From the NCBI GenBank assembly GCA_013003535.1, contig JABDIY010000029.1:1-36814 (forward strand): DNA of 36,814 nt, in the 5' to 3' direction. Of the stretch, positions 6,851 to 10,274 are shown one piece after another (position 1 is the stretch's first letter; each line of letters begins with the position of its first letter). The notes below the pieces were generated by a model. It did no database searches, was not told the DNA's origin, and saw only the letters and a list, made by a program, of their open reading frames with translations. This DNA comes from Acidimicrobiales bacterium. Lineage in GTDB: Bacteria; Actinomycetota; Acidimicrobiia; Acidimicrobiales; SZUA-35. The position numbers were made by a program, and so were the translations under genes.

Positions 6851-7661
6851 GCGGATGCTCTTCAGCCCAGCGCACTGCCTCGTCCTGCAGTTCCTGAAGG
6901 CGAATCGCCAACGCTTCGGTGAATTCTGCCAACTGGTGGCGGGATGCCCTCGCTCCGTTGGTCCCCTGCGGCGGATCGATCGGATTTCCGACGACGATTC
7001 GCACTGTTGTTCGGTGTAGTCGCCTGGAGCCGGCGCTCAATGCTGCCGCCGTCCCGGCAATCCCTACGGGCACGACCGGCGCGTGGGTGCGAGCGGCCAG
7101 CCACGCGGCTCCGTCGAACAGCGGTTGTACGGTGTTGATAGCGGCACGGGCGGAACCCGGTTCCTTCTTGGCTGCCGCCGCAGATATCCGAGCTCCTTCG
7201 GGAAAAACGAACAAGGCCTCGCCCCGGTCCAGGAGTTGTTTGGCTGCTTTCAACGCTTCCCGATCGGCCGTTCCCCTTTTCACCGGAATTGCACCCAGCG
7301 CCGAGCAGAGATACCGAAGACCTCGTCGGGCGAAAAGGCTCTCTTTGCCGAGAGCGCGCAGCCGTCGCTGGCAGACGGTAGCCACAATGACCGAGTCCAG
7401 ATGGCTCCGGTGAACCGGGGCCACCACCAAGGGACCTGGCCGGTCTAACGCTTCCGCATTGCGCACAGCGACTCTCAAATAGGGATGCAGCAGGAGGCGC
7501 GCAAGCCGTCGCACCACCCAGTACAGCACCAGCGACGTGCGGCGGTCACCCACCTCATACGCCCAGTCCCGAAGTGCGCCTGGATCGGCGTAAGTGGGCC
7601 GAAAACGCACTTTGTGGCTCTTCCACCGTCTCTGCAGCCGAGATTTGGTCACATAACCCAT
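6837..7661 (-). CDS. 1-acyl-glycerol-3-phosphate acyltransferase family protein (PlsC-like)
   Basis: Membrane-associated acyltransferase of glycerophospholipid synthesis, expected to move an acyl group to lysophosphatidic acid or a related acceptor. The catalytic HX4D box is HRSHLD (residues 84-89), and the acceptor-binding FPEGAR box is at 153-158, with KRG between them and VPVGIAGT after. The N-terminal 45 residues are strongly basic, followed by a hydrophobic stretch around residues 43-62. 274 aa is normal. It heads the operon with rnz and is divergent from the ECF transporter operon with only about 17 bp between the start codons. Confidence 0.86.
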   Translation of the reverse strand: MGYVTKSRLQRRWKSHKVRFRPTYADPGALRDWAYEVGDRRTSLVLYWVVRRLARLLLHPYLRVAVRNAEALDRPGPLVVAPVHRSHLDSVIVATVCQRRLRALGKESLFARRGLRYLCSALGAIPVKRGTADREALKAAKQLLDRGEALFVFPEGARISAAAAKKEPGSARAAINTVQPLFDGAAWLAARTHAPVVPVGIAGTAAALSAGSRRLHRTTVRIVVGNPIDPPQGTNGARASRHQLAEFTEALAIRLQELQDEAVRWAEEHPHEYR

Positions 7662-7678: not shown

Positions 7679-8875
7679 ATGGCACGCTTATATATCGCTC
7701 GCACACAGGCCAAGCGGCTTTCACCAACTGAACTTGCAGAGGCTGCGGTCATGGCGGATCTGGCGGTCGGCGTCGTGATCATCGCGCGGCTGACCCCGTT
7801 CGCCTACCTCACCACGGTTTTGGGGGCCATTCCCTTCGCCGTCCTGGCCATGCGTCACCGCCGCCACGTCCTGGTGGTCAGTTTCTGGATCAGCGTGATT
7901 CTGGCATTCCTGTTAACCGGCTTTGCCGCCGCTACCCAAGTACTGGTGATGGCGATCTTCGGCGGTGTGTCGGGCCGAGCCTACGCCCACGGCTGGGGTG
8001 GGTTCCGAACCTCGGTTGCAGCGATCGCGTTTGGATGGACGGTAGTCACAGCTCTCAGCCTCGGGATCCTCGTGGCATTCTCGGGCTTCCGCCGTCTCAA
8101 CCTGGAGGCGGCCGCAATTCAATGGACCGGGAGTAGTCGAGTTCTCCACCGGGTCGGACTCGGCTCAGCGGCAGAGTTTTTGGACCCCATCGTGGTTTGG
8201 AGCATCGAGAACTGGTATCTCTCACTCCCGGCCAGCCAACTCGTCTTCTCGGTGATTGTGGCGTTTCTCATCTCCCGGATCGGCGGCCCCACGATCAAAC
8301 GGGTGGACCGCTCAGTTCGAACTGAGCCGTCGAAACGGCCCATTCCCTCGCCGGAATCGGTTGCGGCCGTGCAAACCGCTACCGGCTTTGTGGCCGTAAC
8401 GGGCCCGAACGGAGCGGGGAAGTCCACCCTTCTACGGGCCGTCGCAGTCGCTGAGCCCGGTGTCCTCGGCGAACGGGGCGGGATCGCCTGGATCGGACAA
8501 CGACCAGACAATCAAATACTCGGGACTCGCGTCCTGGACGACCTTGCGTGGGGACTGAAACCGGTCCCGGAGCTGGAGACCCTTCGTTCCACGTTGGAAG
8601 CGGTTGGATTGGCGGGATTCGACCAGCGTGAAACCGACACCCTCTCCGGTGGGGAGCAGCAACGGTTGGCGATCGCCGCCGCTCTCATCCGTAACCCGAC
8701 ACTTTTGCTCTCGGACGAAACCACGGCAATGCTAGATCCTGATGGTAGGGAGCTGGTCCGGGACGCCTTACGAGCTGCTAGTGACTCGGGTATCAACGTG
8801 ATCCACGCCACCCATCTCGAGTCCGATATCGCCAGCGCCGATCGCCAAATCCAAATCGGCCCGGTGACACCGTGA
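7679..8875 (+). CDS. ECF-type transporter: membrane (DUF2232/S-like) domain fused to an ABC ATPase domain
   Basis: Residues about 1-215 contain some five or six hydrophobic helices that read like a DUF2232/substrate-specific (S) component. After a short basic linker comes an ABC ATPase: Walker A GPNGAGKST (residues 242-250), Q-loop IGQRPDN, signature LSGGEQQRLAIA, a Walker B ending SDETTAMLD (Glu present; Thr where most have Pro), and a switch His in HATH. The ATPase part is short and lacks the usual N-terminal strand pair. I chose the ATG at 7679, as the longer frame from 7574 would run through the start of the divergent plsC-like gene. The stop overlaps the next start (GTGA). Together with the following EcfA and EcfT genes this makes an importer for a vitamin, metal or similar micronutrient. 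The substrate is unknown. Confidence 0.8.
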   Translation: MARLYIARTQAKRLSPTELAEAAVMADLAVGVVIIARLTPFAYLTTVLGAIPFAVLAMRHRRHVLVVSFWISVILAFLLTGFAAATQVLVMAIFGGVSGRAYAHGWGGFRTSVAAIAFGWTVVTALSLGILVAFSGFRRLNLEAAAIQWTGSSRVLHRVGLGSAAEFLDPIVVWSIENWYLSLPASQLVFSVIVAFLISRIGGPTIKRVDRSVRTEPSKRPIPSPESVAAVQTATGFVAVTGPNGAGKSTLLRAVAVAEPGVLGERGGIAWIGQRPDNQILGTRVLDDLAWGLKPVPELETLRSTLEAVGLAGFDQRETDTLSGGEQQRLAIAAALIRNPTLLLSDETTAMLDPDGRELVRDALRAASDSGINVIHATHLESDIASADRQIQIGPVTP

Positions 8876-9522
8876 CCGCACTCGTTCTGGACAATGTCCG
8901 CGTGGATCACGCCGCCGGCACCCCGTGGGAGACCTGTGGACTCCAAAATGTCAACCTGCAGCTGGAAGCGGGCGAAAGAGTTTTGGTAGTTGGCGGAAAC
9001 GGATCCGGAAAGAGCACGCTGGCCTCGGTGATGGCCGGCCTCATCCTCCCCACCGAGGGAACCTGCACGTTGGATGGGATCCCAATTGAAGAGCAGGCCG
9101 CTCAAGTCACGCTCGTAATCCAACACACCCGACTCCAGCTGATGCGCCCCACGGTCAGGGAGGAGCTCGAGGATCTCGCCGACCACACCACCGTCATCAC
9201 CCCAGCCGTGAATCGGTTGGGCCTCAACGGGCTACTTCACCGCCGAATCGATGAACTCTCGGGCGGCCAACAACGACGCGTTGGGTTAGCAGGAGCGCTG
9301 GTCCGCAAGACCCCACTCATCCTGCTGGATGAACCGATGGCGGGTCTCGATCGAGAATCTCGTCACCAACTGGTGCATGCGCTCGAGGAGTTGCCGCACG
9401 ATTCCATCGTGGTCGTGGTAACCCACGATCTTCCCGCCAGCCGCCCGATCCTGCACCAGGGGCTCCGGGGAAGACTGCTCCACATAGACAACGGCAGGGT
9501 TCGCGAAAGCGTCGATCGATGA
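8872..9522 (+). CDS. Energy-coupling factor transporter ATPase (EcfA-type)
   Basis: Cytoplasmic ATPase that would pair with the fused ATPase domain of the preceding gene to drive an ECF importer. Walker A GGNGSGKST is at residues 41-49, the Q-loop lies in LVIQHTR, the signature is LSGGQQRRVGLAGAL, Walker B/D-loop is LILLDEPMAGLD, and the switch His is in VVTHD. It starts with GTG in a 4-bp overlap with the gene before and ends in an ATGA overlap with ecfT, so the three are translationally coupled. 216 aa is at the short end for the family. Confidence 0.87.
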   Translation: MTALVLDNVRVDHAAGTPWETCGLQNVNLQLEAGERVLVVGGNGSGKSTLASVMAGLILPTEGTCTLDGIPIEEQAAQVTLVIQHTRLQLMRPTVREELEDLADHTTVITPAVNRLGLNGLLHRRIDELSGGQQRRVGLAGALVRKTPLILLDEPMAGLDRESRHQLVHALEELPHDSIVVVVTHDLPASRPILHQGLRGRLLHIDNGRVRESVDR

Positions 9523-10274
9523 GGAACTCTCTCCACATCCTGCGTTACGTCGAAGGGGACTCCGTGATCCATCGGATGAATCCCCGAGCCAAAGTGCTGG
9601 CGCTGGTTCTCCTGCTTCTCGTTGTGTCGTTCGATGCTTCGTGGATCTCGGTGGGACTGCTGTGGTTCCTCGTGATCGGTGGATCGATGCTTGCCAGGCT
9701 CCCCCGCCAGGTTGCCCCCCGGCCGCCCCGAATCCTGATCGTCATGATGGTTGCCACCATCACGTTGGCGCTCCTGGCTGGAGGCGAGCCGTACGGACTC
9801 GGTGGAGCCATCCTGCAAACGCGGCTGTTCGCGTTCACCCTTGGGCTTCTGGGGCTGTCACTCCTGGTGGGGTGGACTACTCCTACCGCTGACCTACCGG
9901 TCGCAGCTGCCTGGCTGCTCACTCCGTTGCGATGGCTCCACGTGCCGGTCGACGATGTTGTAGCCGGTTTGGCGCTGGCCACACGGGCCCTGCCACTGGT
10001 GGCGGAAGAATTCACCACGGTCATCTCCCTCTCCCGCTTTCGACCCCAACGCCTCACAGGCCCGCTCTCTCACGGAATGGACCTAGCGGCAACTGCCACA
10101 ACCGCCACCGTGCGACGCGGCCTGGAGATGGGCGAAGCGATCGAAGCTCGGGGTGGCACTCCAACAGCCAAGCAAATTGCCCATTCACCAGGAGTCCCTG
10201 ATGCGTGGGGAATGAACGAGTTGGCCCTCCTGGGAGCTGTTGCCGCCATTATTGCTCTCACTCTGATGACCTGA
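9519..10274 (+). CDS. Energy-coupling factor transporter transmembrane protein EcfT (CbiQ-like)
   Basis: Integral membrane scaffold linking the ATPase pair to the S component. The N-terminal pattern HRMNPRAKVLALV is the conserved EcfT start. Several hydrophobic helices follow (about residues 28-60, 70-85, 95-115), then the cytosolic coupling region with GEAIEARGG, matching the Ala-Arg-Gly coupling motif that docks in the ATPase groove. Only one such motif is clear; canonical EcfT proteins often have two. A final hydrophobic helix ends the protein. 251 aa. Last gene of the operon, convergent with the luciferase-like gene 48 bp on. Confidence 0.87.
   Translation: MRNSLHILRYVEGDSVIHRMNPRAKVLALVLLLLVVSFDASWISVGLLWFLVIGGSMLARLPRQVAPRPPRILIVMMVATITLALLAGGEPYGLGGAILQTRLFAFTLGLLGLSLLVGWTTPTADLPVAAAWLLTPLRWLHVPVDDVVAGLALATRALPLVAEEFTTVISLSRFRPQRLTGPLSHGMDLAATATTATVRRGLEMGEAIEARGGTPTAKQIAHSPGVPDAWGMNELALLGAVAAIIALTLMT

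Follow-up and report, generated by a model that had tools for sequence, protein, structure and literature searches.

Gene organization of the locus

In the 36,814-nucleotide stretch of Acidimicrobiales DNA analyzed here (hereafter, the window), three genes follow one another on the + strand, with an overlap of 4 nt between each pair of neighbors. The first gene (7679..8875, +) encodes a single protein of 398 amino acids, in which a six-helix, S-component-like DUF2232 domain is followed by an EcfA-type ATPase. The second (8872..9522, +) encodes a second ATPase, EcfA′, of 216 amino acids, which was assigned to ABC_tran by Pfam, and the third (9519..10274, +) encodes an EcfT/CbiQ membrane subunit of 251 amino acids. 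A Pfam search of the fusion protein matched DUF2232 (PF09991) at residues 32–241 at a score of 42.2 bits (cut-off, 27.8), covering positions 7–219 of the 290 in the profile, and ABC_tran (PF00005) at residues 238–350 with 62.5 bits in the same open frame. The EcfT of the window matched PF02361 (CbiQ) with 53.0 bits against a cut-off of 25, and this was the single CbiQ match found in the window genome. The open reading frame, the coordinates, and the gene order all agree with the claim of a preliminary description of this DNA that one gene joins a DUF2232-like membrane part to an ABC ATPase. The HMM search that it had suggested placed DUF2232 and the ABC ATPase family within one frame, and the separate EcfA and EcfT that it regarded as coupled to the fusion proved to be the products of the second and third genes.

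The relatives closest to the window protein align with it from residues 9–12 onward; the start of the fusion gene is therefore likely to lie near 7679. An acyltransferase gene, which starts at 7661 on the − strand, is divergent from the fusion gene, and the gap between the two starts is 17 bases. If both starts are right, the promoters overlap the neighboring gene; otherwise, one of the starts is misplaced.

Predicted fold of the membrane domain

AlphaFold2 modeling of the whole chain with 31 fusion proteins as input gave a pLDDT of 89.7. When the full model was used for a structural search, all matches were ATPases; the membrane domain was therefore modeled alone (residues 1–214, with 37 membrane domains as input), which gave a pLDDT of 91.5 and a pTM of 0.82. 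The S-component-like domain (residues 14–214; 7718..8320, +), delineated from the Pfam match, the model, the structural match, and the charge distribution, is predicted to consist of six membrane helices and two short helices in the loop preceding the last one.

In a VIA structural re-alignment of the membrane domain alone, rows 1–13 were all ECF S-components, aligned over 150–175 residues. The top match was RibU (Z 11.5, rmsd 3.3, 152 residues), although a Z of about 11 can be reached by helical bundles through a common arrangement. RibU from two species gave Z values of 10.9–11.5, and S-components for folate, thiamine, pantothenate, biotin, and related transporters appeared at Z 7.3–9.8. The first unrelated row had a Z of 7.0 across just 94 residues. 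Foldseek by itself was weaker (best E 0.06, probability 1.00, TM 0.40–0.51), and a profile of the membrane domain searched against the sequences of solved structures gave no match, and hence none to any solved S-component. The preliminary description had allowed that the N-terminal half might be an ordinary permease domain, and had proposed structure prediction and comparison with S-components as a check; in the lone-domain model it is not such a permease domain, and S-components head the structural list.

In helix 1, an AXXXA motif (A22–A26; 7742..7756, +) sits in a conserved EAAVxAD context, and most of the 31 fusions have Ala at both positions. AXXXA is the motif through which S-components dock on EcfT, and MreD and 5TMR proteins, which share the fold, lack it (PMC11109136). 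Based on the clean ordering of the VIA matches, their coverage, and the AXXXA motif taken together, the membrane domain is predicted to have the six-helix S-component fold. In addition, its charge distribution is compatible with six membrane helices with both the N and the C terminus inside; the ends of S-components are likewise both inside (PMC12075633). P40, G81, R138, G151, and W179, whose conservation is complete or almost complete, are located within or next to the outer loops of the domain and likely mark a putative ligand site. The presence of P40, G81, R138, and W179 in this predicted location is at most suggestive of high-affinity micronutrient binding on the outer face.

The fused ATPase domain

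The closest relatives of the fused ATPase domain (approximately residues 225–398; 8351..8872, +) are EcfA/CbiO and similar ATPases, including solved ones. Walker A, GPNGAGKS (8402..8425, +), was identified from the sequence and the alignment, and the alignment also located the Q-loop with the ECF Q-helix motif QRPDNQI (8498..8518, +), the ABC signature LSGGEQQR (8642..8665, +), and Walker B LLLSDE with the catalytic glutamate (8702..8719, +). The Walker A sequence, Q274, LSGG, D346–E347 of Walker B, and H379 are invariant across the fusion alignment, confirming the earlier claim that all core motifs are present. The Q-helix motif of ECF ATPases is xPD/ExQ-phi (PMC6828968), and the fused domain has RPDNQI. 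EcfA′ has just the variant HTRLQL of this motif. Both EcfA-type ATPases have complete ATPase motifs. On the other hand, the Walker B tail SDETTAMLD, which had been called atypical, was found to be the norm of the family, whose members mostly have SDE[STA]T[AS]M[LVI]D.

The actual oddity of the window lineage is a fused ATPase that lacks the A-loop/ABC-beta region and keeps its catalytic motifs. The RYP-type A-loop that is usual in relatives is missing from the window protein and nine close relatives, as is the stretch of N-terminal ABC-beta strands that would precede Walker A (window 8320–8500). The distance from W179 to Walker A is 58–64 residues in 10 of the 31 proteins, including that of the window, versus 87–119 in the rest, and the distance from Walker A to the Q-loop is 25–32 residues in the same 10 proteins versus 32–37 in the rest. 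In the window model, no strands are predicted ahead of the Walker A strand. Owing to this loss, adenine may be held differently in one of the two ATPase halves.

A proposed three-chain ECF-type transporter

We propose, with a probability of roughly 0.8, a dedicated (group I-like) ECF-type ABC transporter as the product of the operon, built from the three chains S-A, A′, and T. Downstream of the fusion lie separate genes for A′ and T, and this EcfT is the sole one found in the genome, which leads to the reading of a complete importer. The earlier view of such an importer with its S subunit welded to one ATPase is thus the best reading of the predicted system, supported by the S-component match and by the A′ and T genes. 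One motor is encoded together with one S, as in group I, with the S lying within the ATPase chain. Of the two Ala-Arg-Gly-type motifs of EcfT, the second is present (EARGG) and the first is weakly conserved (SRF). An independent-looking S-A fusion (PF07456) beside A′-T in Collinsella speaks for the three-chain transporter, whereas the weak Foldseek result, the poorly conserved first x-R-x motif of EcfT, and the location of stand-alone DUF2232 relatives among ribosomal-protein genes, with no ECF genes in the cluster, speak against it.

In the proposed mechanism, the N-terminal six-helix domain would capture a small molecule at the outer face and dock on EcfT via the AXXXA motif of helix 1. The A domain, which follows the last helix on the cytosolic side after a short linker, would pair with A′ for ATP binding and hydrolysis. 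We infer the A/A′ pairing, the toppling, the tethered cycling, and the direction of import from relatives. In group II transporters, ATP binding drives S off the motor, and in group I transporters S has been proposed to remain near the motor (PMC10368641); a covalent S-A link would suit tilting without the release of S.

An unlikely alternative is that the DUF2232 domain, in spite of its S-component fold, is a mere membrane anchor or sensor, and that an unrecognized S protein brings the substrate. In MreD and 5TMR kinases, the same fold serves purposes other than transport (PMC11109136), and DUF2232 also occurs as a stand-alone protein outside any ECF context. However, the AXXXA motif that those two groups of proteins lack is conserved in the fusions, and neither a PF12822 nor a BioY S-component, the two S families covered, was found in the window genome. 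Furthermore, a CbiQ match lies on the contig of the fusion in all 16 genomes of the window's bacterial family that carry one, some of which have a second CbiQ elsewhere.

We consider it very unlikely that the complex works in the opposite direction, exporting or flipping a cytosolic compound that the tethered S domain would present on the outside. ECF subunits have been tied to extracytosolic flavin trafficking in Listeria (PMC9973259), and the Collinsella S-A fusion adjoins an ApbE flavin transferase gene; nevertheless, characterized ECF transporters with S-components import their substrates (PMC10368641), and neither an ApbE gene nor an export gene adjoins the operon of the window.

Searches for the substrate

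The riboswitch or pathway gene that the preliminary description had hoped would reveal the substrate of the importer was not obtained: no riboswitch was matched by Rfam in the window or in seven related loci, and no conserved pathway gene was found in the neighborhoods of the fusion loci. The genes beside the operon, which encode an acyltransferase, a beta-lactamase-fold protein, a luciferase-like monooxygenase, and a carboxylase, were rejected as indicators of the substrate because they are common only to close relatives. Missing biosynthesis genes were rejected as well, because the absence of genes for making thiamine, riboflavin, or biotin does not match the presence of the fusion. The window genome has both RibH and BioB, and neither tracks the fusion. 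ThiC was found in just one of the 39 genomes of the family, irrespective of the fusion, which suggests a widespread dependence on external thiamine precursors.

Distribution and history of the fusion

The fusion was found in 16 of the 39 genomes of the window's bacterial family. In 15 of these it is a single open frame across both domains, and the sixteenth (G021) is represented by a fragment of the ATPase at the end of a contig. The 31 aligned fusion proteins share 32–63% identity with the window protein, and this conservation indicates that the fusion is neither a chance event nor a sequencing join. In a sample of 296 Acidimicrobiia genomes, PF09991 matches were obtained in 23 genomes, 13 of them within open frames of 690–826 amino acids; these loci, when read, had the order DUF2232-ABC-ABC on one chain (S-A-A′). 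The S-A-A′ chain was also present in six genomes of another family (f78) in the phylum sample, with EcfT adjoining in several. In a tree of 37 fusions, the distribution of S-A and S-A-A′ requires three changes, of which at least two are demanded by branches with strong support. The second ATPase was therefore gained by the chain or separated from it on more than one occasion. Sequence matches in Chloroflexi were set aside, since the ATPase part alone aligned, mostly with double-EcfA proteins.

The fusion is thus old and common to many actinobacteria, and the sequencing or assembly artefact uniting two genes that had been envisaged as a pitfall, for which nothing speaks except that the parts stay separate in standard ECF systems, can be dismissed: many independent genomes carry the fusion as an open frame, and the tree has many well-supported branches.

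Significance and comparison with known systems

In most ECF transporters, the capture subunit and the ATPase are separate proteins. Among the papers covered by a literature search, none names DUF2232 and none reports an S-ATPase fusion; an earlier description may exist. ECF subunits are "sometimes fused" (PMC12075633). A Mycobacterium plasmid protein that is 67.9% identical to the fusion of locus L148 is annotated as "DUF2232 domain-containing protein", so that the architecture is already in databases. A broader proposal, which we offer tentatively and with the odds against it, is that DUF2232/YybS is an unrecognized S-component family that is permanently tethered to the motor in these actinobacteria. 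The result would be a natural ECF transporter that operates without the release of S and in which, in the window lineage, one of the ATPases has no ABC-beta region to stack on adenine. Single-molecule work on a group II transporter showed that the S-component leaves and rejoins the motor in an ATP-dependent manner, and the study itself notes that this is no formal proof that expulsion is essential for transport (PMC12075633). Since a natural S-ATPase fusion cannot release S, the need for S expulsion becomes directly testable.

Group I ECF transporters (BioMNY, CbiMNQO) resemble the window system in that a single S is dedicated to the motor, the genes form one operon, and EcfT is combined with two ATPase sites. 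Their S is a separate chain of another sequence family, whereas that of the window is covalently joined to the ATPase. RibU, ThiT, BioY, PanT, and HmpT share with the window domain the predicted fold (Z 7.3–11.5), the AXXXA motif of helix 1, and the cytosolic ends. However, they have no fused ATPase, and the window domain has no detectable sequence similarity to the solved ones.

The stand-alone DUF2232 proteins of the YybS type are homologous to the window domain (hhalign 97.1%, E 5e-11, 197 columns), but are longer (approximately 330 amino acids), lack an ATPase, and lie in an rpsF-ssb-rpsR-rplI-dnaB cluster. The window protein falls outside the YybS subfamily, whose members stand alone, span all 290 profile positions, and belong to the ribosomal-protein/dnaB cluster; it is fused, shorter, and in another context. 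In other Actinomycetota (loci L118–L131), stand-alone DUF2232 proteins are encoded in an rpsF-ssb-(rpsR)-rplI-dnaB cluster without ECF genes, and several of them keep an AXXXA-like helix 1 (EAGKLAAL). The fusion of DUF2232 to an ECF ATPase hints that the YybS-type proteins also have the S-component fold, and domain-fusion logic thus points to this fold for the uncharacterized DUF2232/YybS family as a whole. As the homology is seen by profile and the genes nevertheless lie in a ribosomal-protein cluster, YybS may be regarded as a hypothetical S-component.

In Collinsella aerofaciens (locus L006, 6274–10459), a membrane domain of the S type, PF07456, is fused to EcfA, and an EcfA′-EcfT fusion and the ApbE flavin transferase gene adjoin it. 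As in the window, an S-type membrane domain is carried on EcfA with EcfA′ and EcfT adjacent, whereas PF07456 is another S-type family without profile similarity to the membrane domain of the window. The PF07456-EcfA fusion is probably independent of the window-type fusion, and a link of the former to flavin is possible in view of the ApbE gene.

The mycobacterial system of S-A-A′ and EcfT (family f78), which probably corresponds to Rv2326c/Rv2325c of M. tuberculosis, has the same order of DUF2232, ATPase, and then EcfT as the window. Rv2325c/Rv2326c have been reviewed as an ECF system with T and NBD parts, with the S part treated unclearly (PMC7761784); the fusion supplies a likely S-component for this system. 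In the mycobacterial chain of approximately 700 amino acids, A and A′ are joined and the A-loop is kept, whereas in the window A′ is encoded by a separate gene and the A-loop has been lost.
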